Shown here in pieces: positions 1 through 53,115 of a DNA stretch of 64,000 nt. Made by a program: the position numbers and the translations under genes. Source of the stretch: Ectothiorhodosinus mongolicus (GTDB lineage Bacteria; Pseudomonadota; Gammaproteobacteria; Ectothiorhodospirales; Ectothiorhodospiraceae); contig NZ_CP023018.1 of NCBI RefSeq assembly GCF_022406875.1, positions 159,575-223,574 of the forward strand, written 5' to 3'. Below the pieces are notes generated by a model that made no database searches, was not told the origin of the DNA, and saw nothing but the letters and a program-made list of their open reading frames with translations. Positions within the stretch are counted from its first letter, which is position 1, and each line of letters begins with the position of its first letter.

Positions 1-1203
1 GCTTATAACCGCGTACATGGCTATTACATCGAGATTGGCCGCCAACATGCCGATAGCGTGCCGCAGGACTATCAGCGCCGCCAGACTCTTAAAGGCGCTG
101 AGCGATACATCACGCCTGAGCTTAAAAGCTTTGAGGACAAAGTGCTGTCGGCACGCGAGCGGGCTTTGGCGCGGGAGAAACAGCTTTATGAAGACCTGCT
201 ACAGGGCCTGCAACCCGAACTGCCGGCTTTGCGGCAAACGGCCATGGCCCTGGCTGAGATTGATGTGTTGGTGAATTTTGCTGAACGTGCCGAGGCGCTC
301 AATTACACCCGGCCACTACTCGTTCACCAGCCGGGCATCGAGCTGTTGGAAGCACGGCATCCAGTGGTGGAGCGGGTTTTGGATGAACCCTTCGTGCCCA
401 ATGATCTGCGCCTGAATGATGAACGCCGCATGCTGATCGTTACCGGCCCGAACATGGGCGGCAAATCGACCTATATGCGCCAAGCCGCTCTGGTGGTATT
501 GATGGCGCACATCGGCAGCTATGTTCCTGCGCGCCAGGCACACATCGGCCCGATTGATCGGATTTTTACGCGGGTTGGCGCCAGCGATGATCTGGCCTCT
601 GGGCGATCGACTTTCATGGTGGAGATGACCGAGGCCGCGCATATCCTGCATCACGCCACGGAAAACAGCCTGGTATTAATGGATGAGATCGGACGCGGTA
701 CCAGTACCTTTGACGGCCTATCCCTGGCCATGGCCTGCGCCGAATACCTTGCCAAGACCAATCGGGCTTTGTGTTTGTTTGCCACCCATTATTTCGAGCT
801 CACCAGTCTGCCAGAGGCGTTACCCGCCGTGGTGAATGTGCATATTGATGCCGTGGAACATGGCGAACAACTGGTGTTCTTACACGCCGTCAAAGAAGGC
901 CCGGCTAACCAAAGCTATGGGCTGCATGTGGCAGCTCTGGCGGGCGTACCCCGCGCGGTGATTCGTCGTGCCCGTCAGCATCTGCAACACTTGGAGGCCA
1001 AAGCCTTTGGCCCGGCAGGATCCAGCCAAGCGCCGACGCCGCAATTGGGCTTATTTGATAGTCCGCCTGCCCTCGATGCTGAACTGCAAGCCGAGCTGGA
1101 ACGTTGGGAGCGACTGCGCCCCCTCATCGATGAGTTCGATCCCGATCAAATGACACCGCGTCAAGCGCTGGAGCTATGGTATCAGCTCAAGGCCTTGTGC
1201 TAA
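1..1203 (+). CDS. mutS: DNA mismatch repair protein MutS, C-terminal part (5' end outside window)
   Basis: The reading frame is open from base 1, so this is the C-terminal ~400 residues of a normally ~850-residue protein. The visible part starts in the core/lever region ([12 protein letters not shown]), then has the clamp and the ATPase domain. Walker [10 protein letters not shown] is at 445-471, followed by [13 protein letters not shown] (Walker B and signature region) and FATHYFEL. The C-terminus ends in the short dimerisation segment usual for the family. MutS recognises base mismatches and recruits MutL using ATP. fdxA follows on the same strand, as in Pseudomonas. Identity is certain; only the N-terminus is missing, because of the window edge. 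Confidence 0.98.
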
Positions 1204-1212
1204 CCGGGGTTA

Positions 1213-1242
1213 TTGTCGAAATTTCCGGCGCGTATCTATATT
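1213..1242 (+). promoter_or_regulatory. Candidate sigma-70 promoter for fdxA
   Basis: TTGTCG (1213-1218), an 18-nt spacer and TATATT (1237-1242) lie between the mutS stop and the fdxA start. The -10 matches consensus at 5 of 6 positions and the -35 at 4 of 6. Identified by eye only. Confidence 0.45.
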
Positions 1243-1284
1243 ATTCCGGATTGATTGCCACGCCAGATTCAATGGAGATGGGCT

Positions 1285-1608
1285 ATGACCTTTGTCGTGC
1301 TGGAAAACTGTATTCGCTGTAAGTTCACCGATTGTGTGGAAGTCTGTCCTGTTGACTGCTTCCATGAGGGCCCCAATTTTTTGGTGATCGACCCGGATGA
1401 GTGCATCGATTGCTCGTTATGCGAGCCTGAATGTCCAGCGAATGCGATTGTTCCGGAAGACGAAGTACCCGAGGGTCAAGAGCACATGATCGACCTGAAT
1501 GCCGAGCTTTCGCCGCAGTGGCCGGTCATCACCCGCAAGAAAGATCCCCTGCCCGACGCCGATGACTGGAACGGTAAGCCCGACAAACTGCAGTACCTCG
1601 ACAAATAA
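1285..1608 (+). CDS. fdxA: Seven-iron ferredoxin FdxA
   Basis: A 107-residue ferredoxin closely resembling Azotobacter ferredoxin I. Cysteines at C9, C17 and C21, then the [12 protein letters not shown] block, supply ligands for one [3Fe-4S] and one [4Fe-4S] cluster. The C-terminal half ([18 protein letters not shown]) is the typical FdI extension. It is a small cytoplasmic electron carrier; its partner here is unknown. The ATG at 1285 is chosen over an upstream in-frame codon at 1255 because it has a GGAGATG ribosome site just upstream and matches the usual family N-terminus (MTFVV..NCI). It lies directly downstream of mutS, and its stop codon is three bases before the palindromic element. 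Confidence 0.96.
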
Positions 1609-1611
1609 TGC

Positions 1612-1677
1612 AAAAAGGGGACCAAAAAAGGGGACGGATTTATTTTTTGTTAAAAAAATAAATCCGTCCCCTTTTTT
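1612..1677. repeat. Palindromic KKGTDLFF element, copy at fdxA/ispF junction
   Basis: A partial direct unit (AAAAAGGGGAC, 1612-1622) is followed by a perfect inverted repeat: left arm 1624-1648, loop GTTA, right arm 1653-1677. Each arm contains GGGGACGGATTTATTTT. Because each arm ends in a T run on its strand, the hairpin could act as a bidirectional terminator for the convergent fdxA and ispF. The ispF stop codon (1652-1650) lies in the loop, so the last residues of IspF are encoded by the element. The same element recurs at 52655-52739. It resembles REP/BIME-type palindromes; no REP-associated transposase lies in the window. Confidence 0.9.
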
Positions 1678-2147
1678 GTTATTAAGACCACGGCGTGGGC
1701 GGCGATGCCTTCTTCGCGGCCAGCAAAGCCCAGGCGTTCGGTGGTGGTGGCTTTGACGTTGACCCGCTCGACGGGGATCTCGCAATCTTTCGCTAAGTGC
1801 GCGCGCATCTGCGGGATGTGCGGCCCCATTTTTGGCGCCTGAGCGATAATCGTGGCATCGATATTGCCGATCTCAAAACCTTGGCTTTTGATTAACGCCA
1901 CAACCTGACACAGCAGGATCCGGCTATCGACACCCTCGTAGGCGGGATCTGTGTCTGGGAAATGCTGACCGATATCACCCAAGGCCGCTGCGCCCAAAAT
2001 CGCATCAGTGACCGCATGCGCGAGCACGTCTCCATCCGAATGAGCCTTGAAAGCACGGTCATGCGGCACACGCACTCCGGCCAAAACCAAGTGATTCCCC
2101 TCGGTAAAGGCATGCACATCATAGCCATGACCAATACGCAGATTCAT
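1650..2147 (-). CDS. ispF: 2-C-methyl-D-erythritol 2,4-cyclodiphosphate synthase IspF
   Basis: A 165-residue MEP-pathway enzyme. It converts CDP-methylerythritol 2-phosphate to the cyclic diphosphate with release of CMP. Metal-binding GHGYDVHAF is at the N-terminus, followed by AHSDGDV, the [11 protein letters not shown] segment and [13 protein letters not shown]. The ATG at 2147 overlaps the ispD stop (ATGA) and matches the usual start; an in-frame ATG 15 nt upstream is possible. The C-terminus is odd: after AVVLI, where homologues finish within a few residues, the protein reads TKKGTDLFF, encoded wholly by the palindromic element. The active site is intact, so the enzyme is probably functional. 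Confidence 0.97.
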
Positions 2148-2848
2148 TGCTTCGATCTCCAATAAAACTCCGCCAACTCAAGATCTTCCGGCCGGGTAAT
2201 TTTGATATTACGCGCGCTGCCTGCAACCAACTTGGGCGCATAGCCCGCTCGCTCCATCGCACCGGCCTCATCTGTGACCAAAGCCCCGCCGGCAATGGCC
2301 GAGCTCAAGGCTTGATGCAGCATACCTAGACGAAACATCTGCGGCGTCAGCGCCCGCCAAACACCGGTGCGATCCAGCGTCTGCGCAATCTGCCCCGCGC
2401 CGTCATCCCGTTTCAGAGTATCCCCAACGGGCGAGGCCAGGATGCCGCCCACCGCATCATCGCTCAGCGCCTCGATCAATCGGTCTAGATCGGTTTGCGA
2501 CAGACACGGACGGGCGGCATCATGCACCAACACCCAATCCTGCTCCTGGGCGCCTGAGGCCAGCAAAACTTCTAAGGCATGACACACGGAATGGCAACGC
2601 TCTGCGCCACCTGGCGCTATCAGTAAAGGCTTGGACGCTCGGATATCTAACTCAGCAAACCAAGGATCATGCGGCTGTAGCGCCAAGGCCACACCAGCAA
2701 TCGCCGAATGCATCAAAAACGGCTGCACACTACGTTCTAGAACGGCTTTGCCGGCCAAAGTCAAATACTGCTTAGGGCGATCGGCCTGCATGCGCTGACC
2801 CACACCGGCGGCCGGAATCACCGCCCAATAACGACTTTCAGTGGCCAT
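2144..2848 (-). CDS. ispD: 2-C-methyl-D-erythritol 4-phosphate cytidylyltransferase IspD
   Basis: A 234-residue nucleotidyltransferase of the MEP isoprenoid pathway. The N-terminal CTP-binding loop reads [29 protein letters not shown], the [11 protein letters not shown] segment and [10 protein letters not shown] near the C-terminus are all family motifs. It makes CDP-methylerythritol from MEP and CTP. It overlaps ispF by four bases downstream and shares one base with the ftsB stop upstream, so ftsB-ispD-ispF are probably translated from one mRNA. Length is normal. Confidence 0.97.
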
Positions 2849-3135
2849 CAGGGCTCCTGACGCGGCTGGGTGACAATATGGAAAAAGGTCTCACCCTCAC
2901 CCACCATGCCCATTTCCAAGCGCGCACGCTCCTCAATGGCATCCAAACCGGTTTTCAGATCATCCACCTCAGCTTGTAGCGCCTGATTACGTAGGCGCAA
3001 CAGCTCATTGCTGGCCTCTTGCTCGGTTACCGCAACGCGTAGCTGCAAGACCTCGGGGATACTGCCCTCACCAAACCAAAGCTTGGCCTGCAAACCCAGC
3101 ACCACCAAAGCCAAACCGATCAGGACCAGTCGCAT
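2848..3135 (-). CDS. ftsB: Cell division protein FtsB
   Basis: A 95-residue bitopic membrane protein: a short N-terminal transmembrane helix (LVLIGLALVVLGLQAKLWFG, roughly residues 3-22), then a coiled coil to about residue 75. The end of the coil has the family motif LKTGLDAIEERARLEMGMVGEGETFF. FtsB forms the FtsQLB complex that activates septal peptidoglycan synthesis. Its location between eno and ispD is the conserved gammaproteobacterial position, which supports the call for a short protein. Confidence 0.95.
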   Translation of the reverse strand: MRLVLIGLALVVLGLQAKLWFGEGSIPEVLQLRVAVTEQEASNELLRLRNQALQAEVDDLKTGLDAIEERARLEMGMVGEGETFFHIVTQPRQEP

Positions 3136-3158
3136 GCTCAGAGTCTAGCAAAAACGCC

Positions 3159-4448
<1,290 letters not shown>

Positions 4449-4470
4449 CTATCATAATTAACCAATTTAA

Positions 4471-5318
4471 TTAAACTTCAGCCCTAAGATATTGATCTTC
4501 AGGATATTCATTCTGCTTAACCACTGAATCCAACTCCATCAAAATCTGCAAGAGCTCACGCATTTTCCCCAATGGCCAAGCATTAGGCCCATCGGATAAG
4601 GCACGATCGGGATCCGGATGGGATTCCATAAATAAACCTGCGACACCCGACGCGATGGCCGCGCGCGCCAGTACAGGCACAAATTCACGTTGACCTCCGG
4701 ATGCCGTGCCCTGCCCCCCGGGCTGTTGCACGGAATGCGTGGCGTCAAACACCACGGGACAACCCGTCTGACGCATCACCGCCAATCCGCGCATATCCGA
4801 GATCAAGGTGTTGTAACCAAATGACACACCCCGCTCACAAACCATGATCTGCTCATTGCCTGTGGCACGGGCTTTTTCAACAACATTGGCCATATCCCAG
4901 GGCGCGAGGAATTGCCCCTTTTTGATATTTACCGGCACACCGGCCTGCGCCACACGCTGAATAAAGTTGGTTTGACGACACAAGAAGGCCGGCGTTTGCA
5001 GCACATCCACCACATCCGCGACTTCATCAATGGGCGTGTCCTCATGAACATCGGTTAAAATCGGCACATCCAGCTGCGCCCTAACCTTGGCCAAGATCTC
5101 TAAGCCCGCTGCCATGCCCGGCCCACGGTAACTACTGGCCGATGAGCGGTTGGCTTTATCAAACGAAGATTTATAGATAAACGGAATCCCCAGATCCCCG
5201 GTCATCGTCTTTAAGGCCGTTGCGGTCTCAAAGGCCATTGCCTCGCTCTCAATCACGCAAGGCCCGGCGATCAGGAAAAACGGCAGGTCATTGCCAACGG
5301 TAAAATCACACAAGTTCA

Positions 5319-5319
<1 letters not shown>
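4471..5319 (-). CDS. kdsA: KDO-8-phosphate synthase KdsA (metal-dependent type)
   Basis: 282 residues. It condenses arabinose-5-phosphate with phosphoenolpyruvate to give KDO-8-phosphate, the precursor of the LPS inner-core sugar. Motifs: [12 protein letters not shown] at the N-terminus, [38 protein letters not shown] and FMESHPDP. C21 in AGPC, with the downstream His, Glu and Asp, matches the metal ligands of the metal-dependent class (Aquifex type). The E. coli-type enzyme has Asn at this site and needs no metal. ATG at 5319 overlaps the pyrG stop. Confidence 0.97.
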
Positions 5320-7001
<1,682 letters not shown>

Positions 7002-12788: not shown

Positions 12789-14072
12789 CTAATCGATCAG
12801 CGGTAGGGTTTCTCCGAAAGGCGGCTTGGTTTTGGCAAACTGCGGGGAAAGCAACCAAAGCACTGGGCAGCCGGGTTGATAGTCGGCTGGACCTTGAAGA
12901 TCAGTGAGTACCAAACACATATCCGGGCCGTGACGCTCAGCTTCGATCAACAGGGGCGAAAAATCCGTGCCGCCGCCTCCCTCAAACACGATATCTTCTA
13001 AACGTCGCCGACCCAACTCCAAAGTCTCGACTGCGCGCACATGATCATCGCCAATGATCAAGGTGAGACTGGCCTCGGTACGCCGCACAATGGCTTCAAC
13101 CTCAGTCGCAAAACGTGCCAATAAGGCCTCGTCAATGGACCCAGAAACATCGACGATCAGCGCCAAGCGTGGCACCTTGCGAGCACTAACCCGGCCTGGC
13201 TCCCAAGGCAGCCGCCGCCCGCCTGCGGTACGTCCCTGGTTGGCTAACCAAGACCGTGCCGGCCGAGACCATGAGGTTTCTGGCAAGCGCGCCAGGCCCC
13301 GGGCCACCCGCGTACGCAGGATGTGTTCCCACGGCGTACGCAGCCGCGGCATATCCGCCAATAACGCCCGCAGCATGGAGAACTCGCCATCACCGGCATG
13401 GGCGCGCACCATGCGCTCGCGCCACTCGCGCGTATGATCGGCCTTATCCTCCGCCGCCTCAGACTCCTCCGCCGGCAAGAGATCCGCGAGAATCCCCGCA
13501 CCCGAACGCCGCAGGCGATCAGCCAGATACCCATCCTCCTGAAATGGGGTACGACCCCACTTATCCACAGGGGTCGTACCCCGTTTGGGGGTGGGGGTCG
13601 TACCCCGTTGGGTGAAGCGGCGGTAGAGGCTTTCGACGTCCCATTGCAGCAGCGAGGATTCGGGGCTCTCGCGGATGTGTAGGTGTTCCTCGAGCAGCGC
13701 CTCGAGGAACACAGAGCCGGCGGGTAGCTGAAGCCAGGGCAGGTGGCTCAGGCTGCTATTGATGATGGCATCGGCACAGATGTTGTAGAGCTGCAGGTCG
13801 ACCTCACCGATCAGGCGGCGCAGCTCTTCCAGGCGCTGGCTGTGACGCAAAGCCACATGCAGAACCTGATGCGCGACCAAGCCCACCTGCTCTTCCAGTG
13901 GTCGCTGTGCGAATAAGGGGCCGTAAAAGACGCTGTTACCGTCATTGGCGATAATCGCCACCTCGGGGCGGTCATCGACATCATGGTGCTGCATCCACAA
14001 AGCCAGTCCTCCGGTTGATGGTGCATACTCCACCATCACTTGGATGGCACGGGTGCCTCGGTGGCCGCTCAA
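12789..14072 (-). CDS. VWA-like protein with N-terminal metallopeptidase-like (DUF2201-type) domain
   Basis: 427 residues. The N-terminal ~150 residues resemble the putative metallopeptidase domain of the DUF2201/COG3864 family: LVAHQVLHVALRHSQR at 66-80 occupies the HExxH position, but with Gln instead of Glu. A von Willebrand A-like domain starts near residue 302 with a DVSGS metal site (308-312) and a later GGGGTDFSP loop. Between them is a charged linker containing three 8-residue repeats (156-179) encoded by DNA hairpin units. The TTG at 14072 is taken as start: it has GAGG nine bases upstream and preserves the domain N-terminus; ATG at 14036 is the alternative. The MoxR gene is immediately upstream. 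MoxR/VWA pairs usually remodel or activate a partner complex. Confidence 0.8.
   Translation of the reverse strand: MSGHRGTRAIQVMVEYAPSTGGLALWMQHHDVDDRPEVAIIANDGNSVFYGPLFAQRPLEEQVGLVAHQVLHVALRHSQRLEELRRLIGEVDLQLYNICADAIINSSLSHLPWLQLPAGSVFLEALLEEHLHIRESPESSLLQWDVESLYRRFTQRGTTPTPKRGTTPVDKWGRTPFQEDGYLADRLRRSGAGILADLLPAEESEAAEDKADHTREWRERMVRAHAGDGEFSMLRALLADMPRLRTPWEHILRTRVARGLARLPETSWSRPARSWLANQGRTAGGRRLPWEPGRVSARKVPRLALIVDVSGSIDEALLARFATEVEAIVRRTEASLTLIIGDDHVRAVETLELGRRRLEDIVFEGGGGTDFSPLLIEAERHGPDMCLVLTDLQGPADYQPGCPVLWLLSPQFAKTKPPFGETLPLID
13546..13606. repeat. Three 24-nt hairpin units in frame inside the VWA gene
   Basis: The 13-mer GGGGTCGTACCCC occurs at 13570-13582 and 13594-13606, and as its reverse complement at 13546-13558. 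Copies are spaced exactly 24 nt apart. Each can fold as GGGGT/ACCCC with a three-base loop. On the coding strand the units read RGTTPTPK, RGTTPVDK and WGRTPFQE. Twenty-four bases is eight codons, so insertion kept the frame. A fourth 13-mer is in tilS at 17669-17681. Confidence 0.9.
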
Positions 14073-17395: not shown

Positions 17396-18682
17396 CTACC
17401 CGGCCGCTGACTCGCAGCGCCAAAATCCCCACACAATCACCAACTCATCACCTTGATATAAAAGCGGGATACGATCCCGCTCCCACGGCGGCACACCGGC
17501 CTCTTGCAGCAATTTTTTCAAACTGTGGGTCTGACCCCGCAGCCGGCAGCGCTCACCGCCCTGTCGCAGGCGCACCGTAAAAGGCTGCTGTAGCGCCTCA
17601 GGCGCGACCCCATAGCGCTGACGCAGCACCTCAGGCTCCAATCTCACCGCCAAGGGCTCAATCCAAATGGGGTCGTACCCCATCCATTGCCATTGGCTGG
17701 TGGGATCTAGCGGACCCAAGGGTTTTAAGGCGTGGATGCGCTGGCGGTAGACGCGCAGTTCGGCGCTGGGCCAAGCGCAGAGGATTTGCGCATCGGCGGC
17801 GGCGCTGCGCAATTGCGACAAGAACTCTCGCAGGCGGGCCTGATTGGGCAAAGGCAGACCGCGCTCGCGCAGCCAGCCGCGCACGGCATTACGCTGGCGC
17901 TCAGAAGGCAAGCGCAGCAAGGCCGCTGCATCCAGGGTCCCATCCACCTCGGTACTCAAGTCTTCCACATCCTCACGAGCGCGCTCGGCCAAAAGGCTTT
18001 CGGCTTCGGCCTGCAACCCCGAAGCACGGCATAGGGTGGCATCCACCCCCGGCCACCGCTGGCGCAGCATTGGCATCACCTGATGACGCAAAAAATTGCG
18101 ATCCGCCCGCGCCACAGCGTTGCTCTCATCCTCGACCCAATGCAATTTATGCTGCGCAGCATAAGCGGCGATATCTGCCTCGCTCAAATCCAAAAAAGGT
18201 CGCCCATGCCACCCACCGCCAAACGGTTGAAAACGCGGCATCGAGGCCAGCCCCGCAGGTCCTGCGCCGCGCAGCAATTGCAGCAATAGTGTTTCAGCCT
18301 GATCGCGCGCGTGGTGGGCTGTTAGCAACAGTCCACCCGCCGGTAAGGCCTCTGCTAAGGCAGCATAACGCAGCGCCCGCGCCTTGGCCTCTAAGCTCTC
18401 GCCCGTATCCGGACGCGCGTCGACCTGAAGCAAGCGTAATGGCACGCCCCAGTCATGACATTGCTGCGCGCAATGCTGCGCCCAAGCATCGGCTTGAGCA
18501 CTTAAGCCATGGTGGACATGTACCGCAGTGAGCGGGGGAAGAGATGACGTGGCTGAGTGCTCAGAGCAAAGCAGATGCAGGGCATGCAGCAAAACACTGG
18601 AATCCCGTCCGCCACTGTAGGCGACCACCCAGGCGGTCGCGGGCGGACCTTGTTTTAAGGTTGCTGCGATTGTGTGCAGCAC
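17396..18682 (-). CDS. tilS: tRNA(Ile)-lysidine synthase TilS
   Basis: 428 residues. The N-terminal PP-loop AYSGGRDSSVLLHAL binds ATP. HHARDQAETLLLQLLRGAGPAGL and the PFL..SEADI segment follow. The C-terminal domain has LKKLLQEAGVPPWERDRIPLLY. It attaches lysine to C34 of the tRNA that reads AUA codons, which is essential. Start is GTG at 18682 with AGG seven bases upstream. The stretch MGYDP in its linker is encoded by a 13-mer identical to the hairpin core in the VWA gene. Here tilS follows accA but is no longer next to pyrG. Confidence 0.96.
   Translation of the reverse strand: MLHTIAATLKQGPPATAWVVAYSGGRDSSVLLHALHLLCSEHSATSSLPPLTAVHVHHGLSAQADAWAQHCAQQCHDWGVPLRLLQVDARPDTGESLEAKARALRYAALAEALPAGGLLLTAHHARDQAETLLLQLLRGAGPAGLASMPRFQPFGGGWHGRPFLDLSEADIAAYAAQHKLHWVEDESNAVARADRNFLRHQVMPMLRQRWPGVDATLCRASGLQAEAESLLAERAREDVEDLSTEVDGTLDAAALLRLPSERQRNAVRGWLRERGLPLPNQARLREFLSQLRSAAADAQILCAWPSAELRVYRQRIHALKPLGPLDPTSQWQWMGYDPIWIEPLAVRLEPEVLRQRYGVAPEALQQPFTVRLRQGGERCRLRGQTHSLKKLLQEAGVPPWERDRIPLLYQGDELVIVWGFWRCESAAG
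17669..17681. repeat. Isolated copy of the GGGGTCGTACCCC 13-mer inside tilS
   Basis: An exact match to the 13-mer found three times in the VWA gene about 4 kb away. It falls in the variable linker between the catalytic and C-terminal domains of TilS and is read in frame. It may be a remnant of the same element or a coincidence. Confidence 0.55.
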
Positions 18683-51404: not shown

Positions 51405-52679
51405 ATGCCGAAGGACGGTTTCGAAATCTCACTGCTGGCGAAGTTAGCACATGAGCTGCGCACGCCTTTAACCGCCAGCTTGGGGTATGCGCAATTGCTG
51501 GCCAAGCGCCCGAGCTTGGATGCCGAGTCCGGGGAGATGGCGGCGGCAATCGAGCAGGCCAGCCGAGCAGGCTTGGCTTTGGTGAATGACATGCTGGACT
51601 GGTCACGCCTAGAAATGCAGGTGTTGGCGCCACGAAAACGCGCTTTTGAGCTACGCTCGGTGATCACTCAGGCCGCCGATTGGGCATGGCAACGTCCCGG
51701 TATCGCGCATGTGCATCTGGATATCGATATCGCGGCGGAAGTGCCTGAGTGGTTGGTCGGCGATCCTGATCGACTGCGGCAGATCCTGATCAACGTGCTG
51801 CACAATGCCGCGCGTTTTACCCAAAGTGGTGAGGTGCGTTTGCGCGCTGAGTACTCATCTGAATCCGGTGGCTGGCTGGATTTGGCGGTGGAGGATGATG
51901 GTCCCGGCGTGCCTGAGGCTTTTGCCGAGCGTATCTTTGAGCCTTTTTTCCAAACCCCTGAGGCAGCGGCAAAGTCTGAAGGCTCGGGCCTGGGTCTGGC
52001 CATTGTCAAAGGCTTGGCCGAATTGATGGGCGGCTCGATTAAGCTGGTATCCCCACCGGATCGAGGCAGCGTGTTTTCTCTTGGACTGCCATTGCCCGTG
52101 GCTATAGAAGTCGAGAGCCCACCGCGGTCTACGCACCCGCAGCGCGTTTTGTTGGTGGATGATTCTAAGTTGCATCGCTATTACGGCCTGCAGGTTCTGG
52201 CGCCCCTAGAAGCCGAAATTGTGCAAGCTTCTTGTGGCGAAGAGGCGTTATCGCTGATTCGCGAGCAGCGCTTTGATCTGGTGCTGCTGGATCTGCAGCT
52301 GCCCGATATGAGCGGGCTGATGTTGCGCTCTGAGTTGCGCCAACGTGCATGTCTCGCACCGGTCATCGCGGTGACCGGTGCTCCTGAGCTTTGCGCAGCC
52401 GAAGATATGGCCGAGTTCGCGGCCGTGCTCAGCAAACCCCTAGACCCTTCGGTCTTGCAGGCCGAACTCCGTGCTCTATTCCCCAGCTGGGATAGCAGTG
52501 CGCTCACCGCGCAGCCCGCATCGCCAGACACCGACCTCGAGCAGCTCTGGCTGGCCGAGCTCGCCGAAACCATCGCCGCTCTGGAAAACCCCGACTACCC
52601 CCGCGAAGCGCTGGCCGCGTTGCTGCACCGCCTGCGCGGCAGCGCCGGCGTGTTAAAAAAGGGGACGGATTTATTTTAA
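51405..52679 (+). CDS. Short cytoplasmic hybrid histidine kinase, HPt domain cut by palindromic element
   Basis: 424 residues. The order is HisKA with phospho-acceptor H16 (LAKLAHELRTPL), ATPase (N134, DDGPG 164-168, GSGLGL 193-198), receiver (DD 252-253, phospho-acceptor D296, K344), and the start of an HPt domain with H408 (LLHRLRGSAG). Ten residues later it reads KKGTDLF and stops, all encoded by the palindrome at 52655. The second half of the HPt bundle is missing. It has no sensor or membrane segment. AGGGG nine bases before ATG 51405 supports that start. In Pseudomonas gacS lies near cysM, so it may be a shortened GacS/BarA relative, but this is not proven. Confidence 0.88.
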   Translation: MPKDGFEISLLAKLAHELRTPLTASLGYAQLLAKRPSLDAESGEMAAAIEQASRAGLALVNDMLDWSRLEMQVLAPRKRAFELRSVITQAADWAWQRPGIAHVHLDIDIAAEVPEWLVGDPDRLRQILINVLHNAARFTQSGEVRLRAEYSSESGGWLDLAVEDDGPGVPEAFAERIFEPFFQTPEAAAKSEGSGLGLAIVKGLAELMGGSIKLVSPPDRGSVFSLGLPLPVAIEVESPPRSTHPQRVLLVDDSKLHRYYGLQVLAPLEAEIVQASCGEEALSLIREQRFDLVLLDLQLPDMSGLMLRSELRQRACLAPVIAVTGAPELCAAEDMAEFAAVLSKPLDPSVLQAELRALFPSWDSSALTAQPASPDTDLEQLWLAELAETIAALENPDYPREALAALLHRLRGSAGVLKKGTDLF

Positions 52680-52739
52680 AAAAGGGGACGGATTTATTTT
52701 TCCTGCTCTTTCAGGAAAAATAAATCCGTCCCCTTTTTT
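52655..52739. repeat. Palindromic KKGTDLF element, copy at kinase/acpS junction
   Basis: A direct copy (52655-52677) is followed by a perfect 28-bp inverted repeat: left arm 52678-52705, loop CTCTTT, right arm 52712-52739. The core GGGGACGGATTTATTTT is identical to that at 1624-1677. The first copy supplies the kinase stop codon (52677-52679). The acpS stop (52740-52738) begins at the outer edge of the right arm. The hairpin with T runs on both sides could terminate both convergent genes. Confidence 0.92.
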
Positions 52740-53115
52740 ATTCAGCTACGACGAAGGCGAGGGCGTGGTCGGCTTCATCCGAGAGGCTGAGGTGCAAGCG
52801 GGTGACGCCAAGGCGGGCGGCGGTGGCCGCGCCAGCGCCGCTGAGCGCCAGCTCTGGGCGGCCCAGCTCGCTATGGGTGACGCAGATGTCATGCAGGCTG
52901 AGCTGGGCGCCAATGCCCACACCCAAGGCCTTGGCCAAAGCCTCCTTGGCGGCAAAGCGCTTGGCGAGAAGTGCCGCGGGCTGGGCCGATTCCTGCCATT
53001 GCGCGTATTCCTGCGGGTGCAAGATACGCTGTGCAAAGCGCTCACCATGGCGCTCTAGAGCGCGCTCGATGCGCTCAATGCGCACCAAATCCGTGCCAAT
53101 GCCAATTATCGGCAT
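52738..53115 (-). CDS. acpS: Holo-[acyl-carrier-protein] synthase AcpS
   Basis: 125 residues. [20 protein letters not shown] carries the metal-binding Asp, [14 protein letters not shown] and [20 protein letters not shown] carry the Glu-Ala-Lys motif. It attaches 4'-phosphopantetheine to ACP. The end [10 protein letters not shown] looks like the natural C-terminus, so the palindromic element reaches its stop codon without altering the protein. Overlaps pdxJ by 10 bp. Confidence 0.96.

Follow-up and report, generated by a model that had tools for sequence, protein, structure and literature searches.

The window analysed here is the whole stretch of 64,000 nucleotides of the Ectothiorhodosinus mongolicus genome (contig NZ_CP023018.1, positions 159,575 to 223,574). 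The genes fdxA and ispF converge near its start, and the gap between them contains a palindrome made of two head-to-head copies of a repeat (Table 1). The fdxA product aligns to positions 1-103 of the 104 positions of the FdxA model. The product of ispF ends in HAVVLIT followed by KKGTDLFF, and the TAA stop codon, at 1652-1650, is inside the loop of the palindrome. A second unit of the same repeat ends two more genes of the window, encoding a hybrid histidine kinase and AcpS. The kinase begins at its HisKA domain and, by eye, adjoins a cysteine-synthase-like ORF; the element cuts it just past a motif that looks HPt-like by eye (LHRLRGSAGV). The protein is probably devoid of the sensor and of most of the HPt. 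Its native end could not be recovered from orthologues of the genus, which are too distant (best hit 36%).

Table 1. Features of the window, in window coordinates. The slash marks the outer edge of an element.
Feature	Position	Strand	Remarks
fdxA, convergent neighbour of ispF	1285..1608	+	terminates ahead of both the partial copy and the complete unit
Partial copy of the outer end, AAAAAGGGGAC	1612..1622	+	directly before the complete unit 1623..1678
Complete inverted-repeat unit (miniature element)	1623..1678	.	two A6-GGGGACGGATTTATTTT copies head to head, 26-bp stem, 4-nt loop
Left arm	1624..1648	+	core GGGGACGGATTTATTTT at 1630-1646
Right arm	1653..1677	-	core at 1655-1671, read by ispF
ispF (2-C-methyl-D-erythritol 2,4-cyclodiphosphate synthase)	1650..2147	-	core complete, start 2147
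Tail KKGTDLFF plus TAA, element-derived	1650..1676	-	
Hybrid histidine kinase	51405..52679	+	ends ..LHRLRGSAGV-LKKGTDLF, stop inside the second unit
Second unit: two direct and one inverted copy	52655..52740	.	cores 52661-52677 +, 52684-52700 +, 52717-52733 -
acpS	52738..53115	-	outer edge of the second unit completes its TAA (GAA T/AA AAAAGGGG)

Folding pairs positions 1623-1648 with 1653-1678 in a perfect 26-bp stem, leaving 1649-1652 as the loop. The original prediction had placed a perfect inverted repeat of 25 bp at this junction, and this was confirmed, the 25 bp being the stem minus its outer C-G pair. The predicted energy of the fold is -38 kcal/mol, against -14.9 for shuffled sequences, and none of 200 shuffles was as good. 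The repeat has five matches in the window where 0.14 would be expected. In the whole genome (G000), a single contig of 1,995,095 bp, the 17-mer core is present in 36 exact copies and in 102 copies within two mismatches (100 of these places were listed), whereas the reversed pattern has none. The palindrome is thus not a chance one: the matches in the window, the number of copies in the genome and the comparison of the fold with shuffles all rule this out. The same copy counts support the original view of the palindrome as a dispersed repeat, which would have been abandoned had the 17-mer been absent elsewhere in the genome.

The arms of the family were counted in the stretches retrieved, using two core variants and allowing up to 3 mismatches. 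This gave 101 arms in 59 clusters. Inverted pairs number 28, and 18 of them have a spacer of 7-11 nt. In 14 of these 18 short-spacer pairs the variable base before GGGGAC is, by eye, identical in both arms. Immediately beyond the full ends of some units lie partial copies, consisting of AAAAAGGGGAC or of AAAGGGGAC with a few additional bases, for example at 1612-1622 of the window, at about 1753535-1753578 of the genome and upstream of the transposase gene in L083. These iterated partial copies look as if the element repeatedly entered after the GGGGAC(N) of an older copy. The genome also contains a second palindrome family, GGGGTNNNACCCC (GGGGTCAGACCCC, GGGGTACGACCCC), found at 213 places, whereas the reversed control gave 8. 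Two examples are at 13546-13606 and 17669-17681 of the window (converted from genome places), and several of these palindromes adjoin single copies of the ispF-type repeat. In two islands of small modules (L066 and L068, at 660-669 kb and 733-742 kb of the genome), copies of the repeat lie near many gene ends; their content includes toxin-antitoxin-like genes (by eye), sugar-nucleotide genes and the transposase described below. We considered integron attC sites because the copies have a gene-sized spacing at 660-669 and 733-742 kb, and set them aside, as no attC core motif was seen by eye. One exact copy, HKRGQIYFGSGGG, lies in frame within a chorismate-binding (PabB/TrpE-like) gene (L076:191-1690), where it may be either inserted or a native motif.

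We then compared the end of IspF with those of its homologues. The core of the protein matches TIGR00151 over positions 1-155 of 155, and the end of the model coincides with the junction with the element. The original prediction that the frame of ispF runs through one arm, with the stop codon in the loop and an intact core, was borne out: the last eight residues, KKGTDLFF, and the stop codon come from the element. Matches to 30 PDB structures end at query residue 155-159 in 24 cases and at 151-154 in four, while the other two, which reach residue 164, are both fusion constructs. We searched IspF in 40 genomes, including this one, and found it in 38, i.e. in 37 relatives. The match ends at residue 155-159 of 164 in 36 of the 37; the sole exception (G028) reaches 163 and has a stop inside the match. 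The tail KKGTDLFF is absent from all 22 of the 37 relative C-termini that we viewed. Relatives having the same C-terminus without the repeat would have spoken against the original prediction, and none of these 22 has the tail. The match ends of the relatives and these 22 tail-less C-termini rule out an ancestral tail. Hence, we give practically no credence to the idea that we are dealing with an ancestral IspF C-terminus or with a chance palindrome, which the copy number and the relatives already refute.

What could have brought the repeat to ispF? The genome has a single Y1_Tnp gene, encoding a tyrosine transposase of 241 aa, and copies of the repeat lie beside it. Two motifs were recognized by eye in the protein, HUH (NHVHLLL) and Y---NP (YIELNPVRA). 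It scores above the cut-off of Pfam PF01797 (Y1_Tnp) and obtains 67.6 with the NCBI model REP_Tyr_transpos, below the cut-off of 80. When a C-terminal HTH-like extension was sought, Y1_Tnp was the only model reported by Pfam at E 0.001. The end of the protein, ..PKMGTDLFKKGTDLLKN, lies inside repeat copies, and the copies next to the gene are in direct order, not inverted, unlike in its relatives.

The relatives reveal a tight pairing between this transposase and the repeat. We took the best 80 named relatives among the matches listed in genome contigs, and regarded the repeat as adjacent when a copy with at most 2 mismatches lay no more than 300 bp upstream of the gene or 120 bp downstream of it. 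Within these 80, the repeat is beside 25 of the 28 transposase genes with at least 50% identity and beside none of the 52 below this value. Copies are present at both gene ends, in inverted order, in 16 of the 28. Three relatives with at least 50% identity are without the repeat (L096, L100 and L104), the last of which has a diverged form with 3 mismatches. Nineteen relatives have a right-hand copy; in 14 of them the stop codon of the transposase falls inside this copy or no more than 2 nt away, and in 10 the stop is the TAA of AAAATAAATC. A tree was built from 74 of the 81 transposases, leaving out sequences that contain stops or are shorter than 190 residues; on it, presence of the repeat changes twice, against about 20 times on average when the labels are shuffled (0 of 500 shuffles as low).

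We also looked at the distribution of the repeat across genomes. Exact copies occur in 16 of 96 genomes, including this one. Ten of the 16 have a transposase match or fragment with at least 60% identity among the matches listed, and the other six, with 1-2 copies each, have no such transposase among the matches listed. All seven genomes with at least 4 exact copies have a transposase match or fragments with at least 60% identity. In five genomes the matches listed include one of this kind or a fragment, but the exact repeat is absent; the sole one of these that we examined, G007, has a variant end, GGGGACAGACACC. Copies of the repeat were found in all 15 named genomes that we searched. The copies of G041 and of the Thioalkalivibrio sp. 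ALMg11 genome (G096) are at identical places, which suggests that the taxonomic family of the window is the one containing Thioalkalivibrio. A Nitrospirota genome, G105, has at least 87 exact copies, and 80 of its 83 examined arms are paired. At four places of G105 (L276, L287, L288 and L292) the flanks outside the element are palindromic too, as if the element had inserted into existing hairpins or the palindrome had been extended outwards. The transposase clade with this TIR spans Pseudomonadota, Thermodesulfobacteriota, Nitrospirota, Nitrospinota, Planctomycetota and Myxococcota. The element had been called mobile from the letters of the locus, which the matching transposase supports by inference rather than through observed transposition.

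These results make it very probable that the hairpin is a miniature element composed of two TIRs, inserted at the 3' end of ispF and tolerated there. Several observations speak against this reading: the score of the transposase below the REP_Tyr_transpos cut-off, the direct order of the copies beside its gene, the three relatives with at least 50% identity that lack the repeat, and, among the matches listed, the six genomes with copies but no such transposase and the five with the reverse situation. The palindrome would be a non-autonomous element, two TIRs of a TIRYT-type element standing head to head around a short loop, that entered the convergent fdxA-ispF gap at the 3' end of ispF. The insertion would have replaced the last one or two codons of ispF, added KKGTDLFF and provided the TAA of the loop. 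This copy may have been mobilized by the resident transposase or by an ancestor of it, and the tail and the hairpin would be nearly neutral. A tolerated selfish insertion explains the tail of IspF, and such a tail can be tolerated because the fold of IspF is complete at the junction.

The gaps between fdxA and ispF in related genomes are informative in this respect. No empty site from a close strain was seen, the most similar IspF being no more than 74% identical, and we infer the insertion from the comparison of gaps. Of the 9 other genomes of the genus, 8 have the two genes in convergent orientation, with gaps of 4, 4, 4, 14, 14, 49, 51 and 121 nt. Exact copies of the repeat are absent from 8 of these 9 genomes, seven of which are among the eight with convergent fdxA. 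They are present in G009, though none is on the contig carrying ispF. A stable hairpin is absent from the gap in five of the eight convergent genomes, those with gaps of 4-14 nt, and the gaps of G006, G007 and G009 hold other stable structures.

These gaps also bear on the possibility that the hairpin has been kept as a bidirectional terminator, or as a stabilizer of the mRNA 3' ends, of fdxA and ispF. Folding predicts that the stem is very stable in both directions, and on both strands a GC stem is followed by a T tract, the predicted pattern of an intrinsic terminator. Five of the 12 hits of a terminator scan of window positions 1-6000 correspond to this hairpin, on both strands, against 6.0 hits in all in shuffled sequences. 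Such a role would suit a convergent gap, and the other stable structures in G006, G007 and G009 are consistent with it. Yet five of the eight gaps of the genus do without a stable hairpin, and translation of ispF enters the 5' arm, which should hinder the hairpin on the ispF mRNA: it may interfere with itself there because the terminating ribosome would open this arm. We therefore consider a selected role at the 3' ends possible but doubtful. The original prediction made the hairpin a terminator; as stated, this is unsupported, the evidence being a predicted fold and a terminator scan. Its wording that the element acts as a stop signal implies a role for the element to which our analysis gives no support.

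Other genes end like ispF, as had been anticipated. The GTDLF tail is found on eight genes of this genome: ispF, the kinase at 51405, a CDP-alcohol phosphatidyltransferase, an NAD-dependent epimerase, a carboxymuconolactone decarboxylase-family gene, a DUF218 gene, a MarR-like gene and the transposase. This count excludes short GTDLF frames without a family check, e.g. those at 240250, 394863, 345074 and 1406906. Similar tails occur on several open frames of the Nitrospirota genome (G105). One might take this recurrence as a sign that selection maintains the tail of IspF, for instance for degradation or as a contact, and that the repeat encodes it by coincidence. This is very improbable: the proteins carrying it are unrelated, its sequence simply follows from that of the arm, and all 22 relative IspF C-termini viewed lack it. 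GTDLF-type tails in annotations should be regarded with caution as repeat-encoded.

The position of stop codons relative to the element revealed another pattern. For each arm we followed the longest reading frame entering it; these frames are ORFs, not curated genes. In this genome, 67 frames of at least 100 codons enter arms, and 24 of them have their stop codon at -9 to -6 relative to the core, which is where the element has its outer edge; every other stop position is used by at most two of the 67. The edge stops are TAA in 23 cases and TGA in one. The codon is TAA because the A run completes it (T/AAAAAN GGGGAC). Of the 79 arms that have an A run, 69 carry a T or a C at the outer position, and when the edge is T and the frame has at least 100 codons, the TAA is in frame in 22 of 33 arms (p = 9e-5 against 1/3), one of these 22 being a frame inside a tandem copy. 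In this genome, a TAA at the outer edge is thus a commoner gene ending than read-through into the arm. The picture differs in three other genomes, where edge stops amount to 9 of 100 frames: 2/15 in G009, 4/54 in G105 and 3/31 in G110 (for G105 and G110 we used 35 and 13 stretches around listed places, covering part of the copies). Frames ending within 60 nt upstream of the core number 10/15, 38/54 and 15/31, respectively. Leaving aside two doubtful frames of our genome (212258, inside a tandem copy, and 737710, an antisense frame), the comparison is 22/65 against 9/100 (Fisher exact test, p = 1.6e-4); all these p-values are rough since the arms are not fully independent. The counts in G009, G105 and G110 do not support a family-wide rule on stop codons.

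We used family models to assess if the proteins ending at these junctions have their native length. The list of junction proteins omits the two doubtful frames (212258 and 737710) and uses a limit of 70 codons, and its 24 proteins are not the same as the 24 edge-stop frames. Ten of these proteins were compared with family models, four of the ten giving no match, and acpS was assessed besides. LolA (202/202 model positions), GMP/PMI (467/467) and malate dehydrogenase (327/328) end with their models, and AcpS covers 121 of 125 positions and is matched through its own last residue. Gmd, PPK2 and EIIA-man extend 15-31 residues past the end of the model, so that their native length cannot be judged. 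Judged by these models, protein length looks native in four of the seven.

Such observations raise the question of whether the element, or its transposase, favours stop codons in this genome, entering after the pyrimidine of Y/AA-like sites and restoring a TAA. The 24 edge stops in 67 frames, the 22 in-frame cases among 33 T-edge arms, the excess of T or C at the outer base (69/79) and the four junction proteins of seven that end with their model would all fit. However, edge stops fall to 9/100 in the three other genomes, and purifying selection against insertion inside genes could give the same pattern. By eye, the far flank would complete a stop codon in 4 of 8 simple junction units, and a T/RA target signature from this flank was not established. 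Finally, ispF itself has its stop codon inside the loop rather than at the edge, and the arms are not independent. We thus find a preference for stop codons unlikely. That a TIRYT-type miniature element homes to stop codons, entering behind the T of the codon or of a Y/AA site and rebuilding a TAA from its A-run end, the ispF copy being a misplaced one with an added tail, seems to us quite unlikely. If true, such homing would let an element spread through a gene-dense genome while leaving protein ends unchanged. The frequency of exact placement at gene stops in this genome is unusual, and the coincidence between edge and stop codon in one genome constitutes a testable hypothesis on target choice. 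At ispF, where we favour a tolerated insertion, the locus suggests how a gene of a core pathway can come to end in a transposon-derived hairpin. More broadly, one TIR sequence is tied to one transposase clade across several phyla.

Some of these features have precedents. No paper was retrieved with the form of the 17-mer that has A as its variable base, and in the literature searched, which mostly excluded subscription journals, we found no report of the TAA-edge pattern. The element nevertheless fits published TIRtron/TIRYT systems and is of a kind already known. In the sections available to us, the 2013 description of TIRtrons/TIRYTs reports RAYT-like genes flanked by inverted repeats, some of the form GGGGWSAS, with copies of the TIR elsewhere in dimers and clusters and with flanking repeats that may overlap gene ends (PMC3733652). 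Our element shares the tyrosine transposase, the GGGGWSAS-type TIR and the TIR dimers elsewhere in the genome (the 28 inverted pairs among 59 clusters). The GGGGACAG form agrees with GGGGWSAS, and the variant at the ispF site, GGGGACGG, departs from it at one position. Unlike the TIRtrons described in those sections, it has an extended 17-mer TIR, GGGGACRGATTTATTTT, common to several phyla, at least 87 exact copies in one genome (G105) and, in E. mongolicus, a TAA at the element edge. A later classification, in the parts we consulted, assigns 20 of the 26 TIRYTs to subclass 2.1 and calls for further analysis; it notes GGGG[AT][CG]A[CG] and found no REP-like sequences near subclass 2.1 genes (PMC6006769), whereas our genome has scattered dimers of the repeat that flanks the transposase. 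The Y---NP motif is shared with subclass 2.1 TnpA-Y1 / RAYT group 1, a likeness that does not imply assignment to the subclass.

The closest parallels beyond TIRtrons are REPINs/BIMEs and their RAYTs, as presented in the portions of the reports that we could consult (PMC3116915, PMC2817692). Both types of element form hairpins from inverted doublets, have a dedicated tyrosine transposase and are placed outside coding cores; REPs immediately downstream of rayt stop codons have also been noted (PMC2817692). The inverted doublet forming a hairpin, which characterizes REPINs, is present here, but its arms are TIRs rather than REPs. Reading GGGGACRGATTTATTTT reveals neither a GTAG head nor a palindrome within one arm, and we therefore rejected a classical GTAG REP. 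From the available sections of the 2013 study, the ends of GTAG REPs often supply a TAG stop codon to flanking ORFs, and convergent REPs adjoin the 3' ends of ORFs (PMC3733652). As in those REPs, the end of our repeat gives the neighbouring gene its stop codon, although here this is a TAA made of a T and the A run, or a stop codon in the loop after KKGTDLFF. Repeats that supply stop codons are therefore already known from GTAG REPs, and what stands out here is the quantified enrichment at the edge of the element.
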